Of a DNA stretch of 32,010 nucleotides, positions 2,988-30,768 are shown one piece after another. Source of the stretch: Chitinophagaceae bacterium (GTDB lineage Bacteria; Bacteroidota; Bacteroidia; Chitinophagales; Chitinophagaceae); the NCBI GenBank assembly GCA_009885535.1, contig VFKL01000154.1, positions 1 to 32,010 on the forward strand. The letters run 5' to 3'. Below the pieces are notes generated by a model. It was not told the DNA's origin and did not search any database. It saw nothing but the letters and a program-made list of their open reading frames with translations. The position numbers and the translations under genes are program-made. Every line of letters starts with the position of its first letter. Positions within the stretch are counted from its first letter, which is position 1.

Positions 2988-3222
2988 TTAAAATTTAACC
3001 AATCGAACTGTTTTTGTTTTATTGCCTTCATTTACTTCTAAAAAATAAATGCCTGGTTTTAAATCATTCCCTAACTCAATCGTTTGATTAGCATTTATGG
3101 TAAATGTTTTAAGCACTAATCCACGTAAATCTCTAATCTTAGCTTTTGTATCCTTACCATTTCCTTCCAACGCAATTTTGAATGCACCTCTAGATGGATT
3201 CGGATATACTTTCACCATCATC
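2988..3222 (-). other. T9SS type A C-terminal sorting domain coding segment
   Basis: VKVYPNPSRGAFKIALEGNGKDTKAKIRDLRGLVLKTFTINANQTIELGNDLKPGIYFLEVNEGNKTKTVRLVKF: NPS/G, D.RG, L..GIY and K.VRLVK hallmarks. Confidence 0.88.
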
Positions 3223-9200: not shown

Positions 9201-12200
9201 TGTTAAACCTAAGTTACCAAAAGGCATCGTCCAAGCATAACCGGTAGCCGGTGTATAATCTGATGCTGTTACACTTAATATTGCAGGTGCTTTGTAACGA
9301 TAAACCCTTGCTCCGCAAATATCACTTACCAATTGAGTAGTGATTGTTGTTGGAGCCAAAGGAGCAACTACAGCAGGATAAGGGAAAATGATTGATTTAT
9401 TTGCCCCTACTCCACATGTTGATGTATATGCTAAGCTAATGATGTCATTCCAACTATTTGAAGTACTATTTGAATATCTTACAACGATGACTTTACTCTC
9501 CATTGAACCTGAATCCAATGTAGCATTTGATCCATTTGTATTTACATTGAATAACCATTTGTAACCGTTTGCTGCCACTGTTGTAGCTGTTGCTACAGGA
9601 AGTGATGGCGCAACATAACGATATACTTTTTCTCCACAATTATTTAATACCAATGTACTTGTAATGGCTATTGGTGCTACTGGCACCGTTAATACAACAT
9701 TCGTAAGTGGTGTAACTTTATTTAAACTATTACCACAACTTGAAGTGTACGCAACACTAATGCTGTCGCCAGCAGAAGCACCTGCATTGCTGCTGTATTT
9801 AACCCTTATTGTTTGAGATGACAAACTACCAGAATCCAATATACCGGTTGAACCTAATGAACCAGTTGGCATCAACCAAGCATAACCGTTAGCTGCAGTA
9901 TAAGACAAATTGATGGTACTTGTCAAAGCAGCTGCTTTGTATCTGTACACTCTTTCGCCACATACATTACTTACCAATTCGGCTGTAATGCTTGCTGGGC
10001 TAGTTGGTGCTTTTACCAATGGATTTGCGAATATCATTTTCTTTTTTCCGCTTATGCCACAACCTGATGTGTACGCAAGACTAACGCTATCTCCAATACT
10101 TACTGATGAATTATTAAAATATCTGATGACAATTGTTTTTCCATCTGCAGATCCTGAATCCAATACAGCGGAACTACCTACTGCATTTGTATTAAATGAC
10201 CATGAATAACCAGATGCAGCTACTGATGTTGCAGTTGCCATTGGAAGAGATGGAGCTACATAACGATATACTTTTTCGCCACAATTGTTTACCAATAAAG
10301 TACTTGTAATTAATGTTGGCGCTAATGGTACGTTAAACGTTGTCAACGCTATTTTGGTCAACTTGGTGCTCAATAATGGTGTGTTACCACAATTAGTAGT
10401 GTACCCCACTTTAATTGAATCGCCTAAGCCCGCAGCTGCATTGCTGCTGTATTTGATGCATATAACTCTTGAAGTTAAAACACCAGAATCCAAAGCACCT
10501 GTAGATCCTACAGTTCCAATTGGTAACGACCATTGGTATCCCATAGTATTTGATGACGGCAGAGCAACTGAATATCTGTATACTTTAGTATTACAAGTAT
10601 TGCTTACCAATGTTTGTGTTAATGAAGTTGGTGCAGTTAATTGTACTGTTGGTGAACTGTACACAATATTTGTAAGTTTTGTTGCCAACACACTGCTGTT
10701 TCCACAAGTTGAGGTGTAAGCAACTTTGATGCTATCTCCAATAGATGCTGCAGCACTGCTGGTATATTTAATTCTAATGATTCTTGAACTTAAGGTCCCT
10801 GAATCCAATACGCCTGTTGAACCAACCAATCCGATTGGTAACGACCATGCATAACCGTTAGCCGCTGTATTTGCACTATTGGTTACAGTTGGTAATGAAG
10901 GCGCTGTGTAACGATAAACCCTTGCACCACAATTGTCACTTACTAATGAAGTTGAAATGCTTGTAGGTGCTAAAGGCGCACTTACTGTTGGGTTAGGGAA
11001 TATGATGATTTTATTTGCACTTAATCCACATTCTGAAGTGAATGCCAATTTGATGCTATCTCCTATTGAAATATTTGTTGCATTGTTGTATGTAACTACA
11101 ATTGATTTGCTACTTAAACTACCCGAATCCAATGATGAACTTGACCCTTGTCTTGAAACATTTATTGTCCATACATAACCCGAAGCCGCAATATTATTCA
11201 ACGTTGCTGTTGTTAAATCTGGTGCTGTATAACGGTATGTTTTTGAACCACAATTGTTTGCCACCAAAGTACTTGTTATAGCCAATGGAGCAACTGGTAC
11301 AGTCAACAATGTATTGGTTAACTTAATTGCTTTAGGAATAGAATTTCCACAACTTGATGTGTATGAAACTTTGATACTATCTCCTACAACTGCAGCTGCA
11401 TTACTGCTGTATTTTATTTTAATGACTTGACCACTTAATGATCCCGAATCCAATACACCGTTTTGCCCTAATGCACCATAAGGCATTGTCCATGCATATC
11501 CTGTAGCTGCCGTATATGATACGTTTGTTACTGCAGGTAATTCTGATACTTTGTAACGATACACCCTTGCACCACATACATCACTTACCAATTCAGAAGT
11601 TACACTAACTGGTGATAATGGCAAGTAAATAACAGGTTTAGGATAAATGGTAGATTTAACCGCACCATTACCACATGCAGAAGAATAAGACAATTTGATG
11701 GTATCGCCTATGTTTGTTGAATTTGCATTTGTATATCTCACAACGATTGTACCTGAATTCAATGTTCCCGAATCCAATAAAGCTGTGGTGCCTGTTGATG
11801 AAATATTTAATGACCAAATATATCCTGTTGCTGCTCCGTTTGTTGCTGTTCCTAGTGGTAAAGAAGGCGCAAAGAAACGATAAACAGTTTCACCACAATT
11901 ATTTGATACTAGTGTACTACCAATAATTGTTGATGGTGATAAAGGCGGATTTAAAATGGCGTTTGTTAATTTAACTCCTTTAAATGCGCTGTTGCCACAA
12001 CCAGAGAAAGCCAATACTTTAATACTATCTCTTGTTAATGCCGCTGCATTTGATGCAAATTTAATTTTGATTGTTCTTGATCTATTGATGTTTCCAGAAT
12101 CTATAGTTACACCTGATACGCCACCAACAGAAGTTGGTAACAACCATCTGTAACCGTAAGCATTTGCCACTGCTGAAGTTACCGTAAAACGATAAACACG

Positions 12201-15200
12201 TGCCGCACAATTGTTGCTTACTAATGTTTGTGTTATACCTGTTGGAGCGTTTGGTTTTACGGAATTTACCGTTACGATATATGTAATAACGCTATCACAT
12301 CCGTCAGCCTTTCTGAGTGTGATGGTATATGTACCTGCACTTGTAATACTAGTACCATTAAATGTATATGGTAAACTTGTAGTAGTACAAATAGCAGTAT
12401 CTATTGTACTGTATGTATTGTTTTGAGCAATTGTAAGATTTAATACCGCTATACTATCACATCCTGCAGCATTTGTTCCATTCCAAGTTCTTGTACCAGC
12501 TGTTGAATAAGTTACCCCATTCCAAACGTAGGTAATACATGCTGATACATTTGCTACAGATGAACTGCTTTTTCTAACGGTTAAGTTTAATGTAGCTACC
12601 GAATCACATCCCACAGCATTTGTCGTTGTGTATGTATAAACACCACTATTGGTATACGTTATGCCATTCCATAAGAATGAATTACAAATTGATTCTGTTC
12701 TTGTTGATGTACTGCCATACTTTACAGTTAAGTTCAATGTTGCTACTGAATCACATCCCACTGCATTTGCTGTTGTATATGTATAAACACCACTTGTGGT
12801 ATAGTTTACGCCATTCCATAACAATGAATTACAAACAGTTACTGAACTTGTTGAAGTGCTTCTGTAATTAACGGTTAAGTTTAATGTAGCTACTGAATCA
12901 CATCCTACAGCATTCGTAGATGTAAATGTTTTTATACCACTTGTTGTATAAGTTGTACCATTCCATAAGAATGAGTTACATACAGTTTCTGTTCTTGATG
13001 ATGAAGTGCTATATTTTACCGTTAAGTTTAATGTAGCTACTGAATCGCAACCACCAACATTTGTTGTATTGAATGTATAAATGCCACTTGTATTGTACGT
13101 TACACCATTCCATAACAATGAGTTACATACGGTTTGTGTAGATGTTGACGAATTGCTATAATTAACCGTTAAGTTTAATGTAGCTACTGAATCACATCCT
13201 GCTGCATTTGTTCCAGACAAAGTTCTTGTTCCTGAGGTGGTATAGTTAACGCCATTCCATTCAAATGAATTACAAGCCGCTTGATTTAAAACTGAAGATG
13301 TTGCTCTTCTTATTGTTAAGTTCGCTATCGCAAATGAATCACAACCGACAGCATTAGTTGTTGTAAATGTTTTTACACCACTTGTAGTGTAAGTTGTTCC
13401 ATTCCATATGAATGAGTTACATACTGTTTCTGTTATTGTTGATGATGAACTATTTTTGATTGTTAAGTCAACTATCGCAAATGAATCACATCCACTAGCA
13501 TTAATTGTATTATAAGTGTACACACCGCTTGCTGTATACGTTATATTATTCCAACGGAAAGCATCACAAGATGTTTGTGTTGTTGATGATGTCGTTGAAA
13601 GAGCAACAACATTTGCAGTTAGCGCAGTTCTAGTTGCAGATATACAACCTGTAACCGTATCTCTTGCTTCTGCATAATAAGTAGTGTTTGTTGAAATTGT
13701 TGGCGTTGTAAATGCATTTGTACCTAAAGCCATTAAAAATCCTCCAGTTGCACTATCATACCAATCAATTTTTGCTCTTGTGCTTGTAGTTGCAGAAAGC
13801 GTTGTAGTTCCTGTTTCACAAATATTAGCACCTCTTGAAGATGTAAGTATTGTTGGTAATGGGTTGATGTTAGCCGTTACAGTTGTTCTTGGATTACTTA
13901 ATATGCTACTATTCCCAGCAACAAAGTTTGATGAAGCTCCAGACAAAGTAAAATTGCTAACAGTACCATTATTATTATTGCCTGAAGCATCTAATGTTGT
14001 TGTTATTGTTGAATTATTTGCACTTGCTACACCTTGATTAAAATGATATGAAGCAACTAATCCAGATTGTTGATTTAATTCATTATATAAATTTGCTTGT
14101 ATCTCTGTTTGAGTACGAGCAACATTCCAAATCCTAACTTCATCTAAAGTTCCACTAAAGAATCTATCGTTACCCCAAGAACCAATTGTAAATGGCGTTG
14201 AACCTACAATACTAGGGAATGAATTGTTGGTTATTGTATTTTGTAAAATACCATTTACGTAAAATTTAAGTGTTCGAGTTGATGTTGAAGTTGAGTATAC
14301 TGCAGCTATATGATACCATGTATTTATGTTGAAACCATATGAACAAGCATTGTCATTGCCGCCATTTACATCAAAACGAATTTGATTCCCTGCAAATTGG
14401 AAATGAACCATTCCGGCTGACCATCCAATGTGATTAATTATTGACTTTACACCGCCAAAAGAATTTGAATTAACCCAAGCTTCATATGTTATATCACTAG
14501 TTGATGTAAAATTAGTGATGCTCGATGTTACTTTATCATTTAGACCATCAAAATTAATCGCGTTTGATGATTCAGATTGTGCTGAAATACAACCTGTTGT
14601 AACATCTCTCGCTACTACATAATATGAAGTAGAAGATAAAAGACTTGGCGTAGTGAATGTATTAGAGCCTACTAATAATGGCGTAGTTGATGTAGATGTT
14701 TCATACCAATCAACTTCAGTTCCTGCGGTAGAAGTAGCGATTAAGGTTACTGTATTGCCAGCACAACTAGACCCATTGGTAACCACAGGTTTAGCTGGTA
14801 TTGCATTTATCGTTAAGTTCAATGTTACCACACTATCACAACCTGTTGCATTTGTACCTGACCATGTTTTTGCACCCGATGTAGTGTATGTTGTTCCTTT
14901 CCACAAATACGACCCACAAGCTGTTACTGATTCTGATGATGCTGATGGAGAACATAATTTTAATATTAAAACACTTACCGCACATCCACTTGTTCTAACG
15001 TAAGTGCCACTAGCAGTGTATACCGTTCCATTCCATGTATAACTTGTAGCACCATTTGTAATATTTACTCTTGATGTATCATAAGTACTTGAACCTGCAC
15101 TAACGGTGATGGTTATTTTAGTTCTTGAGTTAGCAACAATGCTGTCATATCCAGCAACAAAATTTGAAGTACTTCCTGTTAAAGCAAAATTGCTAAATGT

Positions 15201-18200
15201 TGCATGATTTGCATTACTTGTTAAATCTGTTAATGAAGTAATACTTGTATTTGTTCCACCTGGTGTTCCCTCATTAAAGTTATAATAAGCCACCAATCCT
15301 GCTTCTGATCCTGTTAACTGAGTAAACATAGATGACTGAATTTGAGCTGGAGTAAGTGCTACATTCCAAATACTCAATTCATCCATTATACCATTAAAAA
15401 CTGGATCACCCCAATTGCTTGCGCCTATTAAACATTTCGTTCTTGTAACATTTGCAGGTACAGGGAAATTAGCTGTTCCAGATGCCTGACCATTAACGTA
15501 TATTGTAGCTGTAGTTCCATTTAAAGTTGCCGCTACGTGATTCCATTTATTTAAAGTAAGTTGTCTATTCGCTTGAAATTGTGCACCACCTACATAAAAA
15601 CCAGGATATCCACCTGTTCCATAAGTTGCACTTAGCAATACACAATTATTACCTGCGCCATTTCCGAAATCTATTATTCTAGACCAATTGGCAAAGCTTC
15701 TAACGTAAACCCATGATTCAATGGTGAAATTACCGTTGAAATAAACACCCGATTTCGCTGTTAAATAATCATTTGACCCATCAAAATTCAACGCATTGGT
15801 TACTCCAGGCTGAGCAGATACACAACCTGTTACCGTGTCTCTCGCTACTAAATAATATGTAGCATTAGCCGATAAGTTTGGTGTTGTAAATGTATTTGAA
15901 CCTGATAATAATGGTGTTGATGATGTTGCTGTTTGGTACCAATCTACTACAGTTCCAGGAGTAGATGTAGCACTCAAAGTAATCGGCACACCAATACAGC
16001 TTGCCACACTATTGTTAACTACGGGGCTAGCAGGGAATGCATTGATTGTTAAATTCAATGTTACCACACTATCACAACCTATTGCACTTGTACCTATCCA
16101 AGTTTTTGCTCCCGAAGTAGTGTAGGTTGTACCTTTCCAAGCATATGATCCGCAAGCTGAAACCGTTTGCGAACTGGTAGATTTTACTTTTACTGTTATT
16201 ACAGCAGTTTTATTAGTGGTACATCCATTAGACGATGTAAATGTATAATTCGCGGTTGTTGTACCCACTGATAATCCAGTTAGCAAACCGGTGCTGCTTA
16301 TAGTTGCATTGGTTGAATCTGATAATGACCAAACTCCACCCAATAAATTAGTTCTCAATTGATTTGTACCATTTACACAAACGGTAATTGCACTAGAAGT
16401 AGATGCTATAGATCCAATAGCATCTATTGAAAAACTATTGGCAACCCAGTTTGAAGCAGCACCATTTAATGCCATATTGGTTACTGTACCATTATTTGCA
16501 TTACTAGTGCGATCTGATAAAGTGGTAACACCGGTATTTGTACCTGCAGCTATACCATGATTGAAATCAAAATAACTTGCTAAGCCAGGTTCTGTGCCTG
16601 CAAGCTCTATGCCCAATGAACTTCTAATTTGAGCTTGTGTTCTTTGCGTACTCCAAACACGCACCTCATCAATAGATCCTTTAAAATCTTGACCCGTGTT
16701 GGGAAGGTTTGTACCAATAAATAAACTTTCATTTTGATTCAAAATGGTATACGTTGTAGTAAGTTTCAATACACCATCAATATAAATATAAGAGCCATCG
16801 GTAACGCCAGCATTATAAGTAAAGGCAACGTGATGCCATTTGTTATCAGCTAAATTAATTCCTGTAGATTTATCCCCTACATTAAAATTGTGCGCAATTA
16901 ATATTCCATCTTTTAAAAACAATCCATATGCATAAGGTTTAACTACAATTCCTCTATATCCACTACCTGCATTTGATGTTTTTATCCATGCTTCTATGGT
17001 ACCTGTTGTATTTAATTGTAAACTGCTGCTATTGGTTGATTTTACATAATCGTTTGAACCATCAAAATCCAATGCATTTCCAAAATTACCTGGAGCGTTT
17101 GATACTACAATTTTTCCCGTTACATAAGTTGTACCACAACCAGCAATTAAAGGAATGGAATAATTATATGTACCCGATACATTTGGTGTACCACTTATTG
17201 TTAAAATATTGGTTACAGTAGAAAATACCGCCGTTACACCTGCTGGTAAATTAGTAGGAGTACCTATGCTAGTAAACCCTGAAGTATTGTAAAGGATATT
17301 GGTTATTGCTGTACCCAAACATAATTTTTGATTATCTGTATTGGCTACGGTTAAAGAAGTTGAGGTTGATCCGCAATTCCACTTAGCGTATAAATTTGTT
17401 GTAGATATTGATTCAAACAATTGTACTTCAGCCAACTGAAACATTCCATCACCACATGTGTTTGTAACATTAACCCTGTAATGTAAAAATGGACTGGTGT
17501 TTGAAATATCAAATGTTCTAGTGAAAAATCTAGTACCAATACAAGGGATTGTTCCAGTGCCAACAGAAGTAAAATTAACTCCATCGTTAGAACCAAAAAC
17601 TTCGAAATTTTTAGGATCTCTGCCAGAACCATCATTGGCCGTTGTAATGGCAATTTTTGTAGCCGTTCTAGCGGTACCGCCAAGATTTACTGTAAAGCCC
17701 ATTCCATCACCCGCATTAAAATCCAGATATTTAGTACCGACATTACCATCAATAATGTTCATGAATTGTTCATTCCCAGGAGATCTCACCGATCCAAAAG
17801 GAGTAATGCCCATGGTTCTTGTAAAAATCGGTATATCGCCGGCTGTGCCTGAAGTAACGCTTGAGGCGTTTGCGCTTGTAATGGTATATGTAGAACCAGC
17901 TGCGTAATTTGTTCCGGTGCCAATTGCATTTGTGTTCCAACCTGCAAAAGTAAATCCTGATCTCACCAAATTACCTGTGTTATCAGGAATGGTAAATGTT
18001 TGATTAATGGTCGAAGACAATACCGGTGGAACAGTTCCACTTGTGCTACCATTTCCATTGTAGGTAATGGTATATTTTATTGGACGCCATTTTGCATAAA
18101 GTGTGGTTACGTTTCCAGGGATGGTAAATGAAGCACCAGCTGCATAGTTGGTACCCATTGTATCCGCAGATGTATTCCAACCGGCAAAAGTAAATCCTGT

Positions 18201-20342
18201 TCTTACCAAAGCACCCGAATTTGTAGCAAGGGTAACCGCTGTGTTGTATGTAGCAGTATTACTAGCAGGTGCGGCACCTCCAGTGTTTCCGTTTCCATCA
18301 TAATTTACAGCATAACTATTTATAGTCCAATTTGCAAACAAAGTAACATCAGAAGTAACTAAAAAAGATGTACCAACTGCATAGTTTGTTCCTGCAGATC
18401 CAAATAATTGAACTTCTGCAAGGCTTAAACAGTTTTGACCTGCAAGCTGAATACGCACGTATCTGGCGTCTTTATTTATTAAGAAATTTCTATTGCCGTA
18501 AACATATACTTCATTAGTTACGTATTTAGAAGAAACATTTGGGTCTCTTAAAGTTGTTGCAAGATCTTGAGAAGTAAATGGTACTGCAGAAGTTAAAATA
18601 TGAAAATTTTGTAAACGGTCATTACAGCAATCCAATCTGTTCCAAATGGTAATAGAGCCGATAAAATAAGTATTTTGTAAATCCAACTGCCACCAGCCCT
18701 GATTTTCACAATTATTATGTGTAACAGAATTCCCACCCCATTGTTGGTTTGTATTTCCGTCTATAGCCCTAGAAGCATCTCCTCCATGCCCTGTACTATT
18801 TTGTGTTGCTGGTTTACCAAGTGTAGGAATTTGTTGTTGTACACCTGAATTTGCCGTATTCCAACCAGCAAACGTGTAACCTGTTCTAACCAAACTACCC
18901 GAATTGGAAGGCAACAATAATGAGGTATTATATTTTGCTGCTCCATTTGGAGGAGGTGTTCCACCAGTACTTCCATTTGGATTATATGTTATGTAATAAG
19001 TATTTAAACGCCATTTTGCATAAAGTGTTCTGTTTGCTGAAGGAATGGTAGAAGAAGAACCAGCCGCAAAATCATTTCCGGTTGTATCTGCAAAAGTATT
19101 CCAACCCATAAATGTGTAGTTTGCTTTTGCCATTGTACCCACAGTTGCCAATGTAAATGTGTTGTTGTACACATCCGTAATGCTAGCAACAGATGGAGCA
19201 CCTGTTGCACCATTGGCATTATACGTAACGGTATAATTTGTAAAAAGCGAATTGTCATTTGTTACATAATTGCTCGAAGCGCCTGATAACGTAAAATTAT
19301 TTAAAGTACCATTTTTTTCATCAGTACCCATTTCAAACAAATTAACGACTCCGGTATTGTTACCAGCAGCTGTTCCCTGATTAAATGTAAAGTAACTTAA
19401 TAAGGCAGTTTCATTTCCCTTTAACTCATCATACATGCTGCCTTTAATTTGAGCCGCTGTTCTTTGGCTAGTCCAAGTTCTCACCTCATCCATTTTACCA
19501 TTAAAATAACCATCTGATGACCAACCACTTTTTCCAATGTAATTCGCAGTGTGTGTAACATTCTGAGAAAAAGCATTTATAAATGTTTTTGTACCATTCA
19601 ATTCACCATTAATGTATAAAGCCACCGAAGTTCCATTTATGGTTGCCGCTATATGCGTCCATTGGTTTAATGGAATTTGTTGAGTCGCCGTTATCACTTC
19701 TTCATTAACACCAAAAGCAGGCTTACCTGTAGAACCTGTACTTGATAAAAGATATATTGAATTCGCATTTGAATTTGCAGTTGAGCCAATTTGAATTATT
19801 CTAGACCAGTTTGTGGTTTCTGTTGGATAAACCCAAGCTTCAACCGTAAAAGAAGAACTCGTTGTTGCATAACCACTTGGCATTGAAACATAATCATCTA
19901 CCCCATCAAACGACAATGCGTTATTTCCATTTCCACCGGCAACCCCAACAGTTTTAGGAATCCACTGTGCAAACAAAGTTGTATTAGCCGTTAACGTAAT
20001 ACTACTGTTGAAATAGTACCTTGTTCCTGTTCCGGCAGCGTTGGTGTTCCAACCGCCAAAAGAGAATCCCGTTTTGTACAACCCTGTTTTGCTGTATTGC
20101 GCCACATTTGCCGAACCACCAGATACAATACCAGTTACCGTTGTTGGAACAGTTCCTCCAGTAGCACCATTTGAATTGTACACAAGGTCTAATGCATAAG
20201 AGAAACAAGTAACCATCATCAAAATGGTTAACATGCTCAAGCGCATAAAAATGTTTTTGCTAAAAATTGAAAGCTCAAACGAACGTCTTTTTGGGTTAGC
20301 TTGAAATGAAATTGGTTGCATTGTTAATGATTTTTTTGTCAT
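2988..20342 (-). CDS. Giant secreted multidomain repeat protein/adhesin (5784 aa) with type A T9SS C-terminal sorting domain
   Basis: Uninterrupted ORF; N-terminal hydrophobic signal (FMRLSMLTILMMVTCFSYA); InlB/Flg_new-like repeats (GFTFAGWNT...LYAKW), LamG (NALSFDGVDDYV, NALDFDGSNDYV, NALNFDGSNDYL, NAINFDGLNDKV), F5/8C-like modules, Cys repeats, PKD-like repeats, and C-terminus VKVYPNPSRGAFKIAL...RDLRGLVLKTF...GIYFLEVNEGNKTKTVRLVKF (TIGR04183-like). Confidence 0.93.
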   Translation of the reverse strand: MTKKSLTMQPISFQANPKRRSFELSIFSKNIFMRLSMLTILMMVTCFSYALDLVYNSNGATGGTVPTTVTGIVSGGSANVAQYSKTGLYKTGFSFGGWNTNAAGTGTRYYFNSSITLTANTTLFAQWIPKTVGVAGGNGNNALSFDGVDDYVSMPSGYATTSSSFTVEAWVYPTETTNWSRIIQIGSTANSNANSIYLLSSTGSTGKPAFGVNEEVITATQQIPLNQWTHIAATINGTSVALYINGELNGTKTFINAFSQNVTHTANYIGKSGWSSDGYFNGKMDEVRTWTSQRTAAQIKGSMYDELKGNETALLSYFTFNQGTAAGNNTGVVNLFEMGTDEKNGTLNNFTLSGASSNYVTNDNSLFTNYTVTYNANGATGAPSVASITDVYNNTFTLATVGTMAKANYTFMGWNTFADTTGNDFAAGSSSTIPSANRTLYAKWRLNTYYITYNPNGSTGGTPPPNGAAKYNTSLLLPSNSGSLVRTGYTFAGWNTANSGVQQQIPTLGKPATQNSTGHGGDASRAIDGNTNQQWGGNSVTHNNCENQGWWQLDLQNTYFIGSITIWNRLDCCNDRLQNFHILTSAVPFTSQDLATTLRDPNVSSKYVTNEVYVYGNRNFLINKDARYVRIQLAGQNCLSLAEVQLFGSAGTNYAVGTSFLVTSDVTLFANWTINSYAVNYDGNGNTGGAAPASNTATYNTAVTLATNSGALVRTGFTFAGWNTSADTMGTNYAAGASFTIPGNVTTLYAKWRPIKYTITYNGNGSTSGTVPPVLSSTINQTFTIPDNTGNLVRSGFTFAGWNTNAIGTGTNYAAGSTYTITSANASSVTSGTAGDIPIFTRTMGITPFGSVRSPGNEQFMNIIDGNVGTKYLDFNAGDGMGFTVNLGGTARTATKIAITTANDGSGRDPKNFEVFGSNDGVNFTSVGTGTIPCIGTRFFTRTFDISNTSPFLHYRVNVTNTCGDGMFQLAEVQLFESISTTNLYAKWNCGSTSTSLTVANTDNQKLCLGTAITNILYNTSGFTSIGTPTNLPAGVTAVFSTVTNILTISGTPNVSGTYNYSIPLIAGCGTTYVTGKIVVSNAPGNFGNALDFDGSNDYVKSTNSSSLQLNTTGTIEAWIKTSNAGSGYRGIVVKPYAYGLFLKDGILIAHNFNVGDKSTGINLADNKWHHVAFTYNAGVTDGSYIYIDGVLKLTTTYTILNQNESLFIGTNLPNTGQDFKGSIDEVRVWSTQRTQAQIRSSLGIELAGTEPGLASYFDFNHGIAAGTNTGVTTLSDRTSNANNGTVTNMALNGAASNWVANSFSIDAIGSIASTSSAITVCVNGTNQLRTNLLGGVWSLSDSTNATISSTGLLTGLSVGTTTANYTFTSSNGCTTNKTAVITVKVKSTSSQTVSACGSYAWKGTTYTTSGAKTWIGTSAIGCDSVVTLNLTINAFPASPVVNNSVASCIGVPITLSATSTPGTVVDWYQTATSSTPLLSGSNTFTTPNLSANATYYLVARDTVTGCVSAQPGVTNALNFDGSNDYLTAKSGVYFNGNFTIESWVYVRSFANWSRIIDFGNGAGNNCVLLSATYGTGGYPGFYVGGAQFQANRQLTLNKWNHVAATLNGTTATIYVNGQASGTANFPVPANVTRTKCLIGASNWGDPVFNGIMDELSIWNVALTPAQIQSSMFTQLTGSEAGLVAYYNFNEGTPGGTNTSITSLTDLTSNANHATFSNFALTGSTSNFVAGYDSIVANSRTKITITVSAGSSTYDTSRVNITNGATSYTWNGTVYTASGTYVRTSGCAVSVLILKLCSPSASSESVTACGSYLWKGTTYTTSGAKTWSGTNATGCDSVVTLNLTINAIPAKPVVTNGSSCAGNTVTLIATSTAGTEVDWYETSTSTTPLLVGSNTFTTPSLLSSTSYYVVARDVTTGCISAQSESSNAINFDGLNDKVTSSITNFTSTSDITYEAWVNSNSFGGVKSIINHIGWSAGMVHFQFAGNQIRFDVNGGNDNACSYGFNINTWYHIAAVYSTSTSTRTLKFYVNGILQNTITNNSFPSIVGSTPFTIGSWGNDRFFSGTLDEVRIWNVARTQTEIQANLYNELNQQSGLVASYHFNQGVASANNSTITTTLDASGNNNNGTVSNFTLSGASSNFVAGNSSILSNPRTTVTANINPLPTILTSSRGANICETGTTTLSATTSTRAKIDWYDSATGGFLMALGTNAFTTPTISTNTTYYAEARDTVTGCISATRTALTANVVALSTTSSTTQTSCDAFRWNNITYTASGVYTYNTINASGCDSFAIVDLTIKNSSSSTITETVCNSFIWNGTTYTTSGVKTFTTTNAVGCDSFAIANLTIRRATSSVLNQAACNSFEWNGVNYTTSGTRTLSGTNAAGCDSVATLNLTVNYSNSSTSTQTVCNSLLWNGVTYNTSGIYTFNTTNVGGCDSVATLNLTVKYSTSSSRTETVCNSFLWNGTTYTTSGIKTFTSTNAVGCDSVATLNLTVNYRSTSTSSVTVCNSLLWNGVNYTTSGVYTYTTANAVGCDSVATLNLTVKYGSTSTRTESICNSFLWNGITYTNSGVYTYTTTNAVGCDSVATLNLTVRKSSSSVANVSACITYVWNGVTYSTAGTRTWNGTNAAGCDSIAVLNLTIAQNNTYSTIDTAICTTTSLPYTFNGTSITSAGTYTITLRKADGCDSVITYIVTVNSVKPNAPTGITQTLVSNNCAARVYRFTVTSAVANAYGYRWLLPTSVGGVSGVTIDSGNINRSRTIKIKFASNAAALTRDSIKVLAFSGCGNSAFKGVKLTNAILNPPLSPSTIIGSTLVSNNCGETVYRFFAPSLPLGTATNGAATGYIWSLNISSTGTTALLDSGTLNSGTIVVRYTNANSTNIGDTIKLSYSSACGNGAVKSTIYPKPVIYLPLSPVSVTSELVSDVCGARVYRYKVSELPAVTNVSYTAATGYAWTMPYGALGQNGVLDSGSLSGQVIKIKYSSNAAAVVGDSIKVSYTSSCGNSIPKAIKLTNTLLTVPVAPLAITSTLVANNCGSKTYRYTAPDLTTATLNNIAASGYVWTINVSRQGSSSSLDSGSLSSKSIVVTYNNATNISIGDSIKLAFTSECGLSANKIIIFPNPTVSAPLAPTSISTSLVSDNCGARVYRYTAPSLPTVTNSANTAANGYAWSLPIGLVGSTGVLDSGTLSSRIIRIKYTSSAAASIGDSIKVAYTSTCGNSSVLATKLTNIVYSSPTVQLTAPTSLTQTLVSNTCNTKVYRYSVALPSSNTMGYQWSLPIGTVGSTGALDSGVLTSRVICIKYSSNAAAGLGDSIKVGYTTNCGNTPLLSTKLTKIALTTFNVPLAPTLITSTLLVNNCGEKVYRYVAPSLPMATATSVAASGYSWSFNTNAVGSSAVLDSGSADGKTIVIRYFNNSSVSIGDSVSLAYTSGCGISGKKKMIFANPLVKAPTSPASITAELVSNVCGERVYRYKAAALTSTINLSYTAANGYAWLMPTGSLGSTGILDSGSLSSQTIRVKYSSNAGASAGDSISVAYTSSCGNSLNKVTPLTNVVLTVPVAPIAITSTLVLNNCGEKVYRYVAPSLPVATATTVAANGYKWLFNVNTNGSNATLDSGSMESKVIVVRYSNSTSNSWNDIISLAYTSTCGVGANKSIIFPYPAVVAPLAPTTITTQLVSDICGARVYRYKAPAILSVTASDYTPATGYAWTMPFGNLGLTGVLDSGTLGSQTIKIRYSSNAGSATGDSIKVAFTSSCGNSKAAAIKLTNALLLTSVIPTPAVVMQELILNKCGEKAYRYTAPSLVTNTTGYQWQMPVGNYGSVGTLDSGTLTSKSIIVKYITNLTAGAGDTVRVAFKSNCGVGTYRSLALLNPPIYVPLTPTDITSELVSDACGARVYRFKSTPIQGVSNLSYAAATGYAWLMPTGPLANTASLDSGTLGSQIIRIAFNSNAPASINDSIKVAYTSSCGNSLFKAIRLPNVKVTAPAAPANITTTLLINNCSEKVYRYVAPSLPAATQNTWAATGYAWSFNTLSLGSSATLDSGSLEGQAIIVRYFNSSTVSVGDSIGVSYTSSCGNSANKIMIFPNPTVSAPLMPTSITAELVSDVCGARVYRYKAATLPSVTNMSFTAATGYAWSMPIGTLGLTGVLDSGSLGSQTIKIKYSSNAPANIGDSIKLAYTSSCGNSRNNVTMLSNIFMPATVIPTPGAVFQELKLNNCGEKVYRYTVPTLATNASGYKWEMPTGAYGTLGTLDSGTLTSKSILIRFNTDAIAGSGDSIKVAFTSICGMGAFKTSGLITPVIYIPNSPASITTELVSNECGARIYRYKASELPAVNNLSYTAANGYAWSMPYGPLGSNGVLDSGSMGSQTIRIKYSSNAGVSIGDSIKVAFTTSCGNTAFKVVNLSNSNLSVPAMPSSMMSTLLVNNCSEKVYRYVAPILPGATQTTGAGTGYLWTMPEGSLGSIGTLDSGSLDSRAIIIRFASNVAASAGDSIKLAYTSLCGSSLYKAFSLTNPVAFVPASPSNIITTLLANNCGEKVYRYTAPSLPAANQNLVQATGYVWSLFMNSGSRVILDSGSYDSKSIIVRYYINSLVNVDDSIALAYTSNCGISLNKSILLPSPAVMLPSSPSSITAELVSDDCGARVYRYKAANFPNIVNNISATPAIGYAWMMPIGPLGEMGDLDSGSLSSQTIRIKYRSNNGASAGDSIKVAFTTSSCGISAYRTTPLTNIIKRGLAAPTSISTTLLSNNCGEKVYRYVAPNLTPATNSTVAATSYAWSFNINEAGSTLLLDSGTMDGKAIIVRYFNNASSSVGDSISVAFNSVCGLSPNRTIVFPNPVVNAPFSPASISTELVSDVCGERVYRYTVSSFPTITNMTYTAATGYSWLMPIGTLGSTGVLDSGSLYSKTIKIRYANTAAARIGDSIKVAYTSSCGISPYKAVMLSNSNIVTIPAAPASITATLLVNNCSEKVYRYVAPALPAATQNTMAATGYIWSYSTLTLGSSASLDSGDIEGRAIIVRYFNSSSESIGDSIGVTYTSLCGNSETKSIIFPNPAVNAPLAPVSITTELVEDYCGSRVYRYKAASMPGITNMAHTAATGYAWSMPIGTLGLNGQLDSGTLGSQTIRIRYSSNAGATAGDSIQVSYTSSCGNSNARTVMLSNITLPLSVVPTPASITQTLVLNNCGEKAYRYTMSEVQGTAIVYQWSMPEGNYGSTGVIDSGSLNSKTIIIRYVSNSIAGSGDSIRAAFSSGCALSAYRTLGLINTASFIPLKPASMTVDLVSDDCGARVYRYSAPALASVNNLSYTAATGYAWSMPIGAVGSTGVLDSGSLSSQTILIKYSSNAEAAEGDSIKVAYTSSCGNSSALSVKLTNILLSNLSVQLTAPNAITQTLVSNYCGERVYRYTATAGQNSAIGYAWVMPIGTVGSTGVLDSGSLSSQTIRIKYSSNEAAATGDSIKVAYTSVCGTGYFKAAKLINTVLTAPIAPISISSVLLVNNCGEKVYRYTAPALFAPATGYVWTMGNNSNAIATIDSGSAEGNVVVVRYLNTASSFIGDSIKVAYNSGCGIGASKSMIFPNPGVNVPFTPATITAELVSDVCGARVYRYKAPVLPGVSNLSFTAPTGYAWSMPVGTLGATGTLDSGSLGSQVIRIVYSSNAAAATGDSIRLAYTSTCGNSANKAIRLSNLVKTGCLITKNANPIAQTPTETVSTKPTEMMVKVYPNPSRGAFKIALEGNGKDTKAKIRDLRGLVLKTFTINANQTIELGNDLKPGIYFLEVNEGNKTKTVRLVKF
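3295..12255 (-). repeat. 28 in-frame PKD-like protein repeats of about 90-110 aa
   Basis: Counted recurrences of (L/V)(V/L)x(N/D)xCG(A/E)(R/K)VYRY...GYxWxMPxGxxGxxGxLDSGxLxSxxIxIxYxSN...GDSIxVAYTSxCGNS in the 5784-aa translation. Confidence 0.9.
12425..13605 (-). repeat. Eight tandem ~49-aa (147-bp) Cys repeats: S(T/S)SSxxTVCNSFLWNGxTYTTSGxxTxTxTNAxGCDSVATLNLTV
   Basis: Eight consecutive copies read in the translation; two more isolated copies lie between LamG modules (ACGSYAWKGTTYTTSGAKTW..., ACGSYLWKGTTYTTSGAKTW...). Confidence 0.9.
13920..14570 (-). other. LamG/concanavalin-like module 4 (approximate boundaries)
   Basis: NAINFDGLNDKVTSS...YEAWVNS...WYHIAAVY...KFYVNGILQ...FTIGSWGNDRFFSGTLDEVRIWNVARTQTEIQ. 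Confidence 0.85.
15160..15795 (-). other. LamG/concanavalin-like module 3 (approximate boundaries)
   Basis: NALNFDGSNDYLTAKSGVYFNGNFTIESWVYV...NKWNHVAATLNGTTATIYVNG...FNGIMDELSIWNVALTPAQIQ. Confidence 0.85.
16440..17085 (-). other. LamG/concanavalin-like module 2 (approximate boundaries)
   Basis: NALDFDGSNDYVKSTNSSSLQLNTTGTIEAWIKTS...KWHHVAFTYN...IYIDGVLK...FKGSIDEVRVWSTQRTQAQI. Confidence 0.85.
17402..17880 (-). other. F5/8C (discoidin)-like module inserted in the fifth InlB/Flg_new-type repeat (approximate boundaries)
   Basis: FMNIIDGNVGTKYLDFNAGDGMGFTVNLGGTARTATKIAITTANDGSGRDPKNFEVFGSNDGVNFTSVGTGT...FLHYRVNVTNTCGDGMFQLAEVQLFE. Confidence 0.7.
18400..18855 (-). other. F5/8C fucolectin-like module inserted in the third InlB/Flg_new-type repeat (approximate boundaries)
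   Basis: LGKPATQNSTGHGGDASRAIDGNTNQQWGGNSVTHN...WWQLDLQNTYFIGSITIWNRLDCCNDRLQNFHI...ARYVRIQLAGQNCLSLAEVQLFG. Confidence 0.8.
19255..19935 (-). other. LamG/concanavalin-like module 1 (approximate boundaries)
   Basis: NALSFDGVDDYVSMPSGYATTSSSFTVEAWVYPTETTNWSRIIQIG...QWTHIAATINGTSVALYINGEL...FNGKMDEVRTWTSQRTAAQIKG. Confidence 0.85.
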
Positions 20343-20646: not shown

Positions 20647-21879
20647 TTAAAATTCTTGAGGTGAAATCCCAATTATTTCTTTAAAAGCATAGTAGAAAGG
20701 TGTATAGGAGGAGAACCCTACATACTTAGATAGAGAATCAAGTGTGTTTCTTTTTAAGTAACCAGACTTGATCAAAATCGTTGCAAAGTTAATTTGGCAT
20801 TTTTTTCGGTAATTAATAAAGCTCAATTGGCTGCAATATTTGAAAATAAACTTCACATGACTGATTGGAATTTTAACCATTGAAGCCAACATTTCTAAAT
20901 CAAAATCATTTTTACAAACCACTTCGTATTGTAAAAAAACCCCGTCTATTTTTTTAAAGTAATCCGATAATTTGTCCTCAATATTGGAGAATAGTTTTAT
21001 ATCATTAGGGTTAATCATTTCTTTAATGGGCAAATTACTCCAACTGTTAAAATGAATTTCTTCACCTTTTTCTCGTTCAATTTCAAGTTCTATTTCTTTT
21101 TCTTTTACAATTTCTTTTTCTTTTAATTCAACGATTACATTTGAATATGGCGTTTTATACACCACATTTTGTACAGAAGTTTGCAAATTAAATCCATACA
21201 AAATTTCAGGCGAAATGATAATTCTTACAAAAATAGCCAGCCACAAAAAAGCACTTATCCATATCAATTCCATATTCTCAGGACCAAATACATTAGATGA
21301 AAATCTGATGTAAAATCCAACCACTATTCTTACCGCTATTAAAAACAACATTGCAGATAAAAACAAAAGCCAATGTTTAATTGCTTTCGGTTGTGTTATT
21401 TCGGATTGTTTTTTTTGTAAAAAATTAATGTTCAACATGTTGAATATGGCTACTGTATAATAGCCCAATAAAACACAAGTTGCTATCATGTTAAGACAAA
21501 CAAACCCAAGTTTTAAATCAGATTCTTCGTGTATGCCAAATGCAATTATTGAAAAAACAAGAATGACATTGGGTGCAATAAAATGGTACATGTCTTTTTG
21601 TGTCCATTTATCTTTGTTCAATACCTCTCTAAAATATAAAAAGCAACATGGAATAATATTTAAAGAAAACAACTCTCCCAATTTTGAAAATATCAATATA
21701 ATTTCATGATCAACAAATTGAGAAATCCCATAAAGCGTATATCTAAAAATAATATTGATCAACGTCAATTTCAGGTATCTATTTATTAAAACAGATGACT
21801 TTTTGAATTTGAATTGCAACAATAAAAACAATAAACAACCTACAAACGCTGTTAGAAAAAATAAAAATGCCTTTAACAT
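20647..21879 (-). CDS. Membrane-embedded AraC-family transcriptional regulator
   Basis: N-terminal multi-TM region (MLKAFLFFLTAFVGCLLFLLLQF..., ...HWLLFLSAMLFLIAVRIVVGF..., ...LIWISAFLWLAIFVRIII) and C-terminal AraC HTH (LASMVKIPISHVKFIFKYCSQLSFINYRKKCQINFA...LDSLSKYVGFSSYTPFYYAFKEIIGISPQEF). Confidence 0.88.
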   Translation of the reverse strand: MLKAFLFFLTAFVGCLLFLLLQFKFKKSSVLINRYLKLTLINIIFRYTLYGISQFVDHEIILIFSKLGELFSLNIIPCCFLYFREVLNKDKWTQKDMYHFIAPNVILVFSIIAFGIHEESDLKLGFVCLNMIATCVLLGYYTVAIFNMLNINFLQKKQSEITQPKAIKHWLLFLSAMLFLIAVRIVVGFYIRFSSNVFGPENMELIWISAFLWLAIFVRIIISPEILYGFNLQTSVQNVVYKTPYSNVIVELKEKEIVKEKEIELEIEREKGEEIHFNSWSNLPIKEMINPNDIKLFSNIEDKLSDYFKKIDGVFLQYEVVCKNDFDLEMLASMVKIPISHVKFIFKYCSQLSFINYRKKCQINFATILIKSGYLKRNTLDSLSKYVGFSSYTPFYYAFKEIIGISPQEF

Positions 21880-21901
21880 TATAAAAATTAGCTTGAAAAA
21901 A

Positions 21902-23920
21902 TTAATCTATTAATACAATTACAGACTTTCGGTACTTCCATCTGTCTGTATCAGAAAGCGTTTTAAATGTTTTGCCAAAATGAATTAAAGAAATGATTTT
22001 CTTATCTATTCCTTTGGCAATCAAATATTTTTTTACCGAAATCGCCCTGGATTTCGACAATTTCAAATTGTGTGATTCGGTTCCTATATCATCGCAAAAT
22101 CCTTCTACCAATAATTTCACCCCAGGTTTTATTTTTTGATTTGAAATAAATTGATCAATGATTAATTTACTCGAATCTGATAACGATGATTTGTTGAATT
22201 CAAAATAAACATTGGTCATCTCTCCTTTTTCAATCATCAACTTATTGGTTAGATGTACAATTGATTTCTTGCTGCTGTCTTTTTGAATTTTATTTATCTC
22301 CTTTAGGTCATTGGGAACCTTATTAGAGGCATCAATTTGTGGTTGACTATTTTTATTATCTGCTATATCTGAATTCTTTTCTTGGACTTTCGAGTTTGCA
22401 ATATTATCAGGCTGAGCAAGCTGAACAACAATAGCAGAATCACGTTTCATTTTTTTTGGTTGGTTGTTATTCGATGCTATTGGATTTTCAGAATTGATGT
22501 TTTTTACGGAATCAAAATCAGATTTATTTTCTTTTTGCATTTGCTTAACCAATAAGGTACTATCTGATTGATTAATATCTAAATCTTTTTTATTGGAAAC
22601 AATTATTTTATCGGGATTGGTATTCTTAATGGAATCAATTACACCTTTACCTGCAATCTGGTTATCAAGCTGATTTGTTTTAGCGAGGTCTGAATTTAAT
22701 GATGTTGCTGAAGAATCAATCAACACATCCTCAGTTTTTATTTCAGGTTTTTGAACAATTTCGTTTTCAACCACAGGATTATTTTTTACAACATTTGCAT
22801 TTTCTGTTTCATGGTTTGTGTACACCAAAACCGTATCATTTTTATACACAAAAATGGTATCGTGTACGTTAACCACTTTAGTAAAATCATTTTCATTTAA
22901 AAATACGCTATCGCCAAAACTAGCAACTGTAGGCAATTCAACTGATTTCTTTTTTTTCTTATCAATATAAATAAATGAAATGCCCATTTGGGTTGGATTA
23001 TCTAGATCTTTTCTAAGTGGCAGTTCGTAACTCAATTGAGTGTTAATGTTTTTAAACAATTGTATACCAAAAATCAATGAAAATGCTTTAACTGAACGAG
23101 AGCGCAATCCTATATTGTACGGTATTTTATTTACGTTTTCATACATAAATCCGTAGGTTACTTCTTTTATACCAATGGAATCTGCCAAAATAATTTCTTG
23201 ATCACTATCAAAAAAATGTCCTTCTTGCCAAGTTAATTGCTCGAATTTCACATGACTATATTTATTTAAAGCATACTTAAATGATAAGTTTGTCGTCAAT
23301 CGTCGCCTTTTTCTTGAAATGTCTTTTTTTTGAGTAAACCACAATAAATTATACATAGAGCCAGTAGCTTCGAAGCAAATCTTATTAATGTTATACGTAT
23401 AACTAAGGCCAATATTAGAGCCCCAATATTGATTCGAATATTTTAAAGAATCTGGTACTCTAGATGTTTTTGTAAATGGGAAAGCCCTAGGGTCTAAGTA
23501 AGCGTTGTATCCTTTTTTATTTTTCATATAAACAGGACTTAAAAAATTAAATACACTTCCTATTCTCAATTGGTGCAAATGATTTTTATCGATAAAAAAC
23601 GATTTTGAAATTCCTAACCCGAAATAATCACCAGAAACCGCAAAATTTTCAGAACCCGTTTTCATATAGTTAAACCCTAATGACAAACGATTATTTTTCG
23701 TTTTAAAATCTGCGCTAAGATTGAACACATTGTTGCTCAATTTATCATCAGTAGCATAATTGTAGTATCCAATAACTCTTGATGAACCATCGAAATTTCC
23801 AATAAGCGAAGGGCTCATCATTAATGGCAACTTCTCATATTGCGTTAACCTTGCATCTTGTGCAAAGAGTTTGCTTACAATAGATAAAGTAATCACCAAA
23901 AATGCGATTGCATTTTTCAT
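21902..23920 (-). CDS. PorP/SprF-family outer membrane protein fused to an OmpA C-terminal peptidoglycan-binding domain
   Basis: Likely start MKNAIAFLVITLSIVSKLFAQ (23920) rather than the track start at 23968, which overlaps the upstream gene. PorP/SprF-like: AQDARLTQYEKLPLMMSPSLIGNFDGSSRVIGYYNYATDDKLSNNVFNLSADFK...LSLGFNYMKTGSENF. OmpA_C: VYFEFNKSSLSDSSKLIIDQF...LLVEGFCDDIGTESHNLKLSKSRAISVKKYLIAKGI. Confidence 0.85.
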   Translation of the reverse strand: MKNAIAFLVITLSIVSKLFAQDARLTQYEKLPLMMSPSLIGNFDGSSRVIGYYNYATDDKLSNNVFNLSADFKTKNNRLSLGFNYMKTGSENFAVSGDYFGLGISKSFFIDKNHLHQLRIGSVFNFLSPVYMKNKKGYNAYLDPRAFPFTKTSRVPDSLKYSNQYWGSNIGLSYTYNINKICFEATGSMYNLLWFTQKKDISRKRRRLTTNLSFKYALNKYSHVKFEQLTWQEGHFFDSDQEIILADSIGIKEVTYGFMYENVNKIPYNIGLRSRSVKAFSLIFGIQLFKNINTQLSYELPLRKDLDNPTQMGISFIYIDKKKKKSVELPTVASFGDSVFLNENDFTKVVNVHDTIFVYKNDTVLVYTNHETENANVVKNNPVVENEIVQKPEIKTEDVLIDSSATSLNSDLAKTNQLDNQIAGKGVIDSIKNTNPDKIIVSNKKDLDINQSDSTLLVKQMQKENKSDFDSVKNINSENPIASNNNQPKKMKRDSAIVVQLAQPDNIANSKVQEKNSDIADNKNSQPQIDASNKVPNDLKEINKIQKDSSKKSIVHLTNKLMIEKGEMTNVYFEFNKSSLSDSSKLIIDQFISNQKIKPGVKLLVEGFCDDIGTESHNLKLSKSRAISVKKYLIAKGIDKKIISLIHFGKTFKTLSDTDRWKYRKSVIVLID

Positions 23921-23948
23921 ATAAAATATTTGTTTGAAAGGATTGGAA

Positions 23949-25292
23949 TTAAAATGCATTCGGGTCACCGAAAGTCATTCGATAAATGGTAAGGAAAAGT
24001 ATTTTAAAATCAAGTAAAAAATTCCAATTTTCGATATACCAAATGTCGTATTTAACGCGATTTTCCATGTCCACCACTTCTTTTGTTTCGCCTCGAAAAC
24101 CATTTACTTGCGCCCAACCGGTAATGCCTGGTTTTATAAAATGACGCACCATAAAATCATCAATTTGTTCGCTGTATGATTCGGTATGCTTAAGCATGTG
24201 AGGCCTTGGACCAATGACAGACATTGATCCTAAAAAAACGTTGACGAATTGAGGCAATTCATCCAAATTCGATCTTCTTAAAAATGCACCTATTTTAGTA
24301 ATTCTTGGATCGTCTTTAGTGGCTTGAATTTCATCGGATTCAGCATTGACTTTCATTGTTCTAAATTTATAACAATAAAATTCTTTGCTGTTTTCTCCGG
24401 AGCGAAGTTGCTTAAAAAAAACAGGTCCTTTTGTAGTTAATTTTATCAACAATGCAATTAATGGAAACAACCAAGAAAAAATAAACAAAATGACAACAGA
24501 TGAAAACACAATGTCAAATATTCGTTTTAATGAACGATTAATTTGTTTTTCTAATGGTTCCTTTCTAAAAGTATATGCAGGTAAATCACCGTATTCAACA
24601 ACAACAAATCTTTTGAAAGACCCTAAAGGAATAAGATTTGGAATAAATCGAATTCTTGTCATTTTTAAATTGCAAATATTAATCACCTTTTTTAAATCAG
24701 CTTGATTAAAACAATTTGAAGTAATAAAAAGCTCATCTAATTTCTTATTGTTTTCAATGAATTCTACAACATCATTTAAATTGCCCAGATGGGATTCTTT
24801 TACATCGGAATTTTTATTGTCATCGAAATATCCTTTTATATTATAGCCAATTGATGGGTCATTTTTAATGACATGATGAAATTGATTAACGTACGAACTC
24901 CATCCACAAAAGGCAATTGTTCTGTAGTTGTATCCACGCTTTCGAAGTTGCTTAATCAGCTTAACAACAAAAATTCGTTGAGGTATGAGCACAAATAAAA
25001 AAATGACATAAAAGAAAAAAAGCTGAAAAATCGTAAGTCCACTAAACTTAAATAGAAATATACAAATCAATACAACATGTAAGATAAATGCATTTAGCAT
25101 TCTGCTCACATAAACCGCCACGGTTTCCATTCTTAATTTTTTTTCGGCATGGAGCCACAATACCACCAATACCCACAAAAGATTAATGACAAATAATTCC
25201 AGTTGAATCAATTTTATAGACAATAGATTTATGCTACCCCACTTTAAAAAAAGTGAAAATAAAAACACTGCATTCAACACTATTAAATCCAA
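23949..25292 (-). CDS. Exopolysaccharide biosynthesis polyprenyl glycosylphosphotransferase (WcaJ/undecaprenyl-phosphate sugar transferase-like)
   Basis: KRIFDIVFSSVVILFIFSWLFPLIALLIKLTTKGPVFFKQLRSGENSKEFYCYKFRTMKV...ITKIGAFLRRSNLDELPQFVNVFLGSMSVIGPRPHML...KPGITGWAQVNGFRGET. Track start is TTG; open frame extends upstream to about 25331. Confidence 0.93.
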   Translation of the reverse strand: MDLIVLNAVFLFSLFLKWGSINLLSIKLIQLELFVINLLWVLVVLWLHAEKKLRMETVAVYVSRMLNAFILHVVLICIFLFKFSGLTIFQLFFFYVIFLFVLIPQRIFVVKLIKQLRKRGYNYRTIAFCGWSSYVNQFHHVIKNDPSIGYNIKGYFDDNKNSDVKESHLGNLNDVVEFIENNKKLDELFITSNCFNQADLKKVINICNLKMTRIRFIPNLIPLGSFKRFVVVEYGDLPAYTFRKEPLEKQINRSLKRIFDIVFSSVVILFIFSWLFPLIALLIKLTTKGPVFFKQLRSGENSKEFYCYKFRTMKVNAESDEIQATKDDPRITKIGAFLRRSNLDELPQFVNVFLGSMSVIGPRPHMLKHTESYSEQIDDFMVRHFIKPGITGWAQVNGFRGETKEVVDMENRVKYDIWYIENWNFLLDFKILFLTIYRMTFGDPNAF

Positions 25293-25422
25293 TGCCAGTT
25301 GAATAAGTCGTATGTATCTGTAAATTTTGATAGAATTTTTTTTTCTAAAAAGAAAATATTATGTGAAGTGAAAAGTCAAAATTTAAAATTCAAAAAAATA
25401 AAATTACTGAATACCTTATTTT

Positions 25423-25752
25423 TTACTTTTTACTTTTTGAATTTGGGCTAGCCAATACTGTAAAAAAAATGAACAAATAAAAAACAAACGCACCCAAAAC
25501 ACTACCAAAAAATCCATAAAAAACATCCATTAAATCTGGGCTGCGATGTACTATAAAAAACTGTCCTATTTCTGCAATGATTACCAAAAAAATGGAAAAC
25601 AAAATATTTTTAAAGAAATGTTTTAATTTTTGAGTAACCGAGTAATTGTTGTTGAAAGATTTAAATTCCAAAATAAATCCGATAAAAATAAACGGCACCG
25701 CTGTTCTGAAATTGTAATATTCATTGCACCAATTGCGAACATATAAAGGCAT
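25423..25752 (-). CDS. VanZ-like small membrane protein
   Basis: EIGQFFIVHRSPDLMDVFYGFFGSVLGAFVFYLFIF resembles the VanZ-like E-GQ...R..D..D...N..G motif; upstream in-frame sequence encodes another TM helix (IKNKSTLYIASLFILAICVFYFSWIPNPGFET), so the true start is probably near 25857. Confidence 0.65.
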   Translation of the reverse strand: MPLYVRNWCNEYYNFRTAVPFIFIGFILEFKSFNNNYSVTQKLKHFFKNILFSIFLVIIAEIGQFFIVHRSPDLMDVFYGFFGSVLGAFVFYLFIFFTVLASPNSKSKK

Positions 25753-26016
25753 ATAAGTTTCCGTTTCAAAACCAGGATTAGGAATCCATGAAAAATAGAA
25801 AACGCATATTGCTAAAATAAATAAGGACGCAATATATAATGTAGATTTATTTTTGATGGGTTATCAATGTTTTGTTTTTATCAATGATGCAAAATAACAA
25901 AACAAAAAATGATAATTATTTATTATTCTAAAAATTTATTCTTTTAATAACCTTCAACATGAAATACTTCAAACAGGAAATTCAAACTTTTTCAAATTTG
26001 ACTTTTCACTTTTATC

Positions 26017-26760: not shown

Positions 26761-26785
26761 ATAAGATGTTTGTTAGCCCCCTCAG

Positions 26786-26800
26786 TCCCCCGAAGGGGGA
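26786..26800. repeat. Short GC hairpin TCCCCC-GAA-GGGGGA in an AT-rich intergenic region
   Basis: gccccctcagTCCCCCGAAGGGGGAagttgggaat: perfect 6-bp stem, 3-nt loop. Confidence 0.7.
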
Positions 26801-26851
26801 AGTTGGGAATTATTTTAAATTATTGAAATATTTGTACCGGATGAATATTTT

Positions 26852-26932
26852 AAACCTCTTGAACGCATTGAACCTTTTGAACCTTTTGAACATCTCAAAC
26901 CTCATAAACATCAAAAACCTCTCAAACCTTTT
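26852..26932. repeat. 9-bp tandem minisatellite, nine units
   Basis: aaacctctt gaacgcatt gaacctttt gaacctttt gaacatctc aaacctcat aaacatcaa aaacctctc aaacctttt; last units overlap the stop codon of the adjacent CDS. Confidence 0.8.
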
Positions 26933-28318: not shown

Positions 28319-28325
28319 TACTCAA

Positions 28326-29528: not shown

Positions 29529-29575
29529 TTTAATTAATTGGTTTTTCTGATTTGGTAGGATTCATTTCAAAAAAT

Positions 29576-30757: not shown

Positions 30758-30768
30758 TATTTAAAAAA

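Follow-up and report, generated by a model that had tools for sequence, protein, structure and literature searches.

Organization of the giant surface protein

The minus strand of the window (the whole 32,010-nucleotide stretch of DNA analysed in this study) carries a single ORF of 5784 aa at nt 2988-20342, which encodes a giant predicted secreted multi-domain surface protein. The Pfam and NCBIfam searches showed LamG, Flg_new, F5/8C, Ig_7, and PKD_6 domains in this protein together with a C-terminal T9SS type A sorting tail, and the score of TIGR04183 on the C-terminus was 41.4 bits against a cut-off of 23, which assigns the protein to the T9SS cargo. All five Flg_new repeats matched PF09479; repeats 1, 2, and 4 were intact, and repeats 3 and 5 were interrupted in frame (Table 1). 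The C-terminal 3000 aa (2991-11999, minus strand) consist of a long array of PKD_6-like repeats of approximately 90 aa (ELVSDxCGARVYRYKA...), which is probably the stalk.

The region upstream of the gene (20647-32010, minus strand) has the look of an exopolysaccharide cluster, with a sugar transferase, several glycosyltransferases, a hexapeptide protein, OmpA, and an AraC-type regulator, and the giant ORF is flanked on its other side (2-2323) by a Reg_prop/Y_Y_Y sensor-like protein. The same genome encodes a second large protein (G000:C101, 6219-7598; L001, L020; frame of 2959 aa), whose six Flg_new repeats are all intact, with no lectin insert lying between them.

Table 1. Domains, half-domains, and inserts of the giant protein in the window
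Feature	Position (nt)	Strand	Evidence
Flg_new repeat 1, intact	19965..20180	-	PF09479 40.6 bits
LamG 1, between Flg_new repeats 1 and 2, not nested	19242..19922	-	PF13385
Flg_new repeat 2, intact	19014..19235	-	PF09479 43.2 bits
Flg_new repeat 3, N-terminal half (aa 446-500)	18843..19007	-	PF09479 1-45/65; own HMM 1-55
Insert 1, F-type lectin by sequence (aa 501-649)	18396..18842	-	PF22633 7.2e-15; PF00754 4.6e-13; PDB 3cqo FBP32 4.6e-24
Flg_new repeat 3, C-terminal half (aa 650-672)	18327..18395	-	own HMM positions 54-77
Flg_new repeat 4, intact internal control	18087..18323	-	PF09479 45.8 bits; own HMM 86.0 bits
Flg_new repeat 5, N-terminal part (aa 754-822)	17877..18083	-	PF09479 1-58/65
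Insert 2, discoidin/F5-8C domain by sequence (aa 823-980)	17403..17876	-	PF00754 5e-08; PDB 7nsn 1e-28
Flg_new repeat 5, last strand TTNLYAKW (aa 981-988)	17379..17402	-	alignment, own HMM, Pfam
LamG 2, at domain junction	16425..17078	-	domain search and boundary check
Ig_7 copy a, strands before insert (aa 1436-1511)	15810..16037	-	PF19081 1-74/84
LamG 3, nested in Ig_7 copy a (aa 1512-1739)	15126..15809	-	PF13385 2.5e-31
Ig_7 copy a, last strand RTKITITVSAG	15093..15125	-	insert-skipped PF19081 match
Ig_7 copy b, strands before insert (aa 1848-1922)	14577..14801	-	boundary comparison
LamG 4, nested in Ig_7 copy b (aa 1923-2151)	13890..14576	-	boundary comparison
Ig_7 copy b, last strand RTTVTANINPLP	13854..13889	-	boundary comparison
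Ig_7 copy c, without insert; serves as internal control for the split site in Ig_7	13596..13859	-	boundary comparison
T9SS type A sorting domain (Por_Secre_tail)	2994..3209	-	TIGR04183 1.1e-10; PF18962 1.2e-09

Interruption of Flg_new repeats 3 and 5

In repeat 3, the host residues ...GYTFAGWNTANSG stop at aa 500 (NSG), the 149-aa insert 1 follows in frame after GWNTANSG, and the host restarts at aa 650 with AGTNYAVGTSFLVTSDVTLFANW (AGTNY). In repeat 5, the host stops at ...GSTYTIT (aa 822), the 158-aa insert 2 stands directly before the last strand, and TTNLYAKW restarts the host at aa 981. The host residues were all kept at both splits, with none missing and none doubled, and visual inspection of the insert junctions gave no duplicated flank. 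The G+C contents of the two inserts were 0.358 and 0.395, and that of the gene was 0.375.

Our own Flg_new HMM was built from 94 repeats, none of which was taken from the window. As found, the two pieces of repeat 3 scored 51.2 and 13.7 bits, and repeat 5 scored 72.5 bits over positions 1-70. After the inserts were skipped in silico, the scores of repeats 3 and 5 were 81.6 and 83.0 bits, respectively, over the full length (1-77), close to that of the intact repeat 4, and each shift of the cut by 10-30 residues gave a lower score. Skipping the insert also extended the coverage of PF09479 from 1-45 to 1-64 of 65 positions in repeat 3 and from 1-58 to 1-65 in repeat 5, and both repeats were above the gathering score of this family (27 bits) already in their split form. 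Each of the five repeats has one copy of the strand-end motif [LIVFM][YF][AG].W, and the protein has no other copy, against an expectation of 0.25 in shuffled sequences; the motif comes straight after each insert. When the protein was aligned by MAFFT with 21 uninterrupted arrays from other bacteria, both gaps fell at the same boundaries within a few residues. These results indicate that the two in-frame splits are real and did not arise by chance. The sequence-only reading had claimed that modules split two Flg_new repeats and that the host resumes after each; the HMM halves, the insert-skipped scores, and the MAFFT gaps agree with this claim, and the HMM search that it proposed with PF00754 and PF09479 matched both inserts and all five repeats.

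Identity of the two inserts

By its sequence, insert 1 is an F-type (fucolectin-type) lectin, and its sequence matches in the PDB were FBP32, Sm-hPAF (4gwi, 8.9e-24), and fucolectin-related proteins. Rules for the fucose and calcium motifs of F-type lectins have been published (PMC5712786). The putative fucose triad of insert 1, which consists of His542, Arg569-Leu-Asp571, and Arg576, fits the motif H..RXDX4(R/K), its His/Arg/Arg spacing (+27, +34) is that of His52/Arg79/Arg86 in the eel lectin AAA, and AIDGN at aa 526-530 fits the calcium motif h2DGx. The text of PMC5712786 prints HX24, while its residue numbers put 26 residues between the His and the Arg, the same number as in insert 1. The intact fucose motif argues for a selected function of this lectin. 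The alignment for insert 1 included two F-type loci. An F-type lectin with 50% identity to insert 1 was observed in a 2587-aa protein (L193, plus strand, approximately 1477-1887), where it lies between calcium-type DxDxDG repeats.

The sequence of insert 2 assigns it to the discoidin domains: PF00754 scored 33.6 bits against a cut-off of 28.2, and the nearest structure by sequence was the N-terminal discoidin of the GH92 mannosidase 7nsn. Nine discoidin loci were included in its alignment. The Pfam and PDB sequence matches thus bear out the fucolectin-like and discoidin-like labels that the inserts had been given earlier. The identity between insert 1 and insert 2 was 26%, and therefore neither was copied recently from the other. 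Nothing was found when the viral contigs were scanned with each insert alone.

Structure modelling of the host halves

AlphaFold2 was run on a host alignment (A6) of 22 rows, in which the host rows were gapped across the inserts. In blocks of 10 residues, the pLDDT of repeat 3 was mostly 84-94 in the N-terminal half and mostly 92-95 in the C-terminal half, and that of repeat 5 was mostly 88-93 in the N-terminal part and 91 in the last strand. The modelled strands of repeat 3 (E22-28, E41-44, E48-50, and E63-69 before the insert, E233-235 and E240-248 after it) follow the same order as those of the intact repeat 4 (E250-256, E269-272, E276-278, E291-297, E312-314, and E320-328). The modelling therefore supports, and does not decide, that the host halves of both split repeats take the structure of an intact repeat, because the gapped host rows favour closure in the model. 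The pLDDT of the inserts was mostly below 60, since no usable homologue rows were added for them. A second model of repeat 3 with two lectin rows (alignment A9) had a mean pLDDT of 46 and was not counted as evidence. The structure prediction proposed earlier thus bore fruit for the host halves, with their high pLDDT and the repeat-4-like strand order in repeat 3, but not for the inserts. The claim of a domain-in-domain architecture with two different split points is upheld by the sequence, the complementary HMM halves, and these confidently modelled host halves.

The host profile matched the InlB B-repeat structure 2y5p in a sequence-profile search (6.9e-05), and 2y5p was absent among the 50 Foldseek PDB matches listed for the A6 model. 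These matches included GH92 and CBM32 discoidins, with 7nsn on top, and the Foldseek search of the same model against BFVD gave an InlB-like phage protein. Flg_new repeats were also observed in many viral contigs (L138-L187), and some tail proteins in BFVD resemble the modelled host repeats.

LamG domains nested in Ig_7 domains

Nesting in this protein extends to a second host fold. Ig_7 copies a and b (13854-16037, minus strand) hold a LamG domain at the identical site, before the last strand, and copy c is plain. When the insert in copy a was skipped, the PF19081 match rose from 52.6 to 70.0 bits and covered positions 1-83 of 84. The same unit of LamG in Ig_7 was found in a congener (G051, locus L296), with plain Ig_7 copies alongside. 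The DNA identity of the Ig_7 hosts was 73% over 220 bases, the nested LamG 3 and LamG 4 shared 38% aa identity, and LamG 3 was nearer to LamG 1 (42%) than to LamG 4. This pattern of identities hints at an exchange of the nested modules.

Frequency of split Flg_new repeats

The first survey covered 78 genome loci, 50 viral loci, the window, and 28 family-genome loci and gave 837 repeat matches in 166 ORFs. The second survey, which partly overlapped the first and covered mostly Bacteroidota loci, gave 238 matches in 57 ORFs. The two surveys comprised approximately 1,075 Flg_new-like matches in 223 ORFs, some of which were common to both and some weak or redundant, and the only genuine splits among these matches were the two in the window and one in an actinobacterial MAG (L101). 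By a simpler count of motifs, 422 repeats were closed, and these three were split. In L101 (3542-4399, plus strand), HMM positions 3-61 and 62-77 are separated by approximately 230 aa, and the joined repeat scored 40.2 bits over 3-65 of 65 positions with Pfam. With one other split in approximately 1,075 matches, splitting of the Flg_new repeat is therefore rare, and no split repeats were seen in the sampled congeners.

The insert of L101 resembles a LamG/ConA domain by eye only; it had no Pfam family match, a PDB sequence search gave no support for LamG/ConA, and a weak PHROG match to a virion structural protein was observed. Partial Pfam matches, among them those in G691, G298, and G169, proved on checking not to be splits. 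For a candidate SprB-type repeat split by an F5/8C lectin in L196/L198, which are relatives from the same class, joining the flanks brought no gain in the SprB score (22.0 vs. 23.4 bits), and this case is unproven.

A search for the same split repeats in other Bacteroidota had been proposed, and none was found there in the two surveys; the only other case is actinobacterial. The sequence-only reading had further suggested that the beta-grasp repeat is a display scaffold that tolerates lectin insertions. Such tolerance holds for the two repeats of the window but is weakly supported as a general property of the Flg_new repeat. It looks more like a trait of this one protein, in which LamG domains are nested in Ig_7 as well.

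Interpretation

We believe, with a probability of approximately 0.8, that this protein is a giant T9SS-exported adhesin in which sugar-binding jelly rolls are nested in the loops of stalk domains and the host repeat closes around them. By sequence, the F-type lectin sits in a loop of Flg_new repeat 3, and the discoidin sits just before the last strand of repeat 5. The two ends of a jelly roll lie side by side, and therefore the host repeat would hold the lectin by its base and push it off the stalk axis. By analogy with RTX split domains, we infer that the inserts are oriented so that the sugar pocket would face outward from the stalk. The F-type lectin is predicted to bind fucosylated glycans, the discoidin and LamG domains would bind other glycans, and the protein may attach the cell to algal, host, or biofilm polysaccharide.

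The half-repeats might instead be degenerate linkers or truncated repeats beside ordinary tandem lectins, like beads on a string, with no co-folding. In the same protein, LamG 1 and LamG 2 interrupt no host and are placed at domain junctions, and inserts often have short linkers of their own. We nevertheless consider this arrangement improbable for repeats 3 and 5, because the halves are complementary and score like an intact repeat once joined, the strand-end motif directly follows each insert at a chance expectation far below what was seen, and the host halves were modelled at high confidence. An assembly or annotation artefact, that is, a chimera or a frame error, would be easier to imagine in a genome assembly fragmented into 210 contigs, but the frame of 5784 codons is single and open, the inserts are in frame with a G+C content near that of the gene, the host boundaries are exact, and the same repeat type was split independently in another phylum (L101), so we give such an error almost no credence.

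Neutral domain shuffling, in which jelly rolls entered any surface loop that would accept them and serve no display function, deserves more weight, although we still regard it as unlikely. The insert families and sites are different and fall in two host folds, repeats 3 and 5 being themselves split at differing sites, and split repeats are rare, with none in the sampled congeners. Set against this, all identified nested modules of the protein are of lectin-type fold, a congener has the Ig_7/LamG unit at the same site, and the F-type lectin retains its full fucose motif.

Beyond the adhesin reading itself, we tentatively propose, at somewhat less than even odds, that split-domain lectin display originated independently in the T9SS adhesins of Bacteroidota, that Flg_new and Ig_7 domains serve as exchangeable sockets for F-type lectins, discoidins, and LamG domains, and that giant bacterial adhesins generally follow nesting as a design rule, whatever their secretion system. 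Should nesting mark ligand-binding modules outside the RTX adhesins as well, such modules could be recognized by a simple sequence rule, namely two complementary halves of a stalk repeat with a jelly roll between them. This rule would locate the business ends of giant surface proteins, which are now annotated as truncated repeats and stray lectins, and the InlB B-repeat would become a second, structurally different chassis for the design of lectin-display proteins.

Comparison with known systems

The InlB B-repeat, or Listeria-Bacteroides repeat (PF09479, 2y5p), is related to the host repeats by five family matches and the profile match. Unlike the PF09479 repeats surveyed, which are uninterrupted except in L101, two of the five repeats in the window hold 149 and 158 aa. 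No description of split Flg_new repeats was found in the papers searched, which is weak evidence because most subscription papers lay outside the search. Insert 1 shares its His/Arg/Arg spacing and calcium motif with known F-type lectins (AAA, MsaFBP32, and Streptococcus Sm-hPAF); these have been reported as single, tandem, or mosaic, whereas insert 1 sits inside another domain. Insert 2 is similar to the discoidin of the GH92 alpha-mannosidase 7nsn and to CBM32 modules both by sequence and by Foldseek. In contrast to 7nsn, it has no attached enzyme and is nested in an adhesin repeat.

Studies have shown that RTX adhesins such as MpIBP, FrhA, and AhLap contain split domains, in which a ligand-binding module, its termini adjacent to each other, interrupts a stalk domain and buds out of it (Graham et al. 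2024, Proteins 92:933; PMC12077191; PMC10865825). For example, the split-domain modules of AhLap and of V. cholerae and A. veronii bind fucosylated glycans (PMC12077191; PMC10865825). The protein of the window resembles them, by sequence and in part by modelling, in that a putative sugar-binding module is nested in a stalk domain that closes afterwards. The hosts in these RTX adhesins, which are proteobacterial proteins of type I secretion, are mainly Ig-like domains, with an RTX beta-roll and a vWFA domain as further hosts, whereas the hosts here are Flg_new (InlB B-repeat, predicted beta-grasp) and Ig_7 domains in a T9SS-type Bacteroidota protein, and one of the modules is predicted to be a true F-type lectin. 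RTX adhesins are defined by type I secretion and C-terminal RTX repeats, and the C-terminus here is a T9SS type A sorting domain, which points to T9SS and not type I secretion; the protein is therefore not an RTX adhesin, and we propose that it works like one. The split-domain principle is thus already known from RTX adhesins, while its predicted beta-grasp carrier and its T9SS setting appear to be new.
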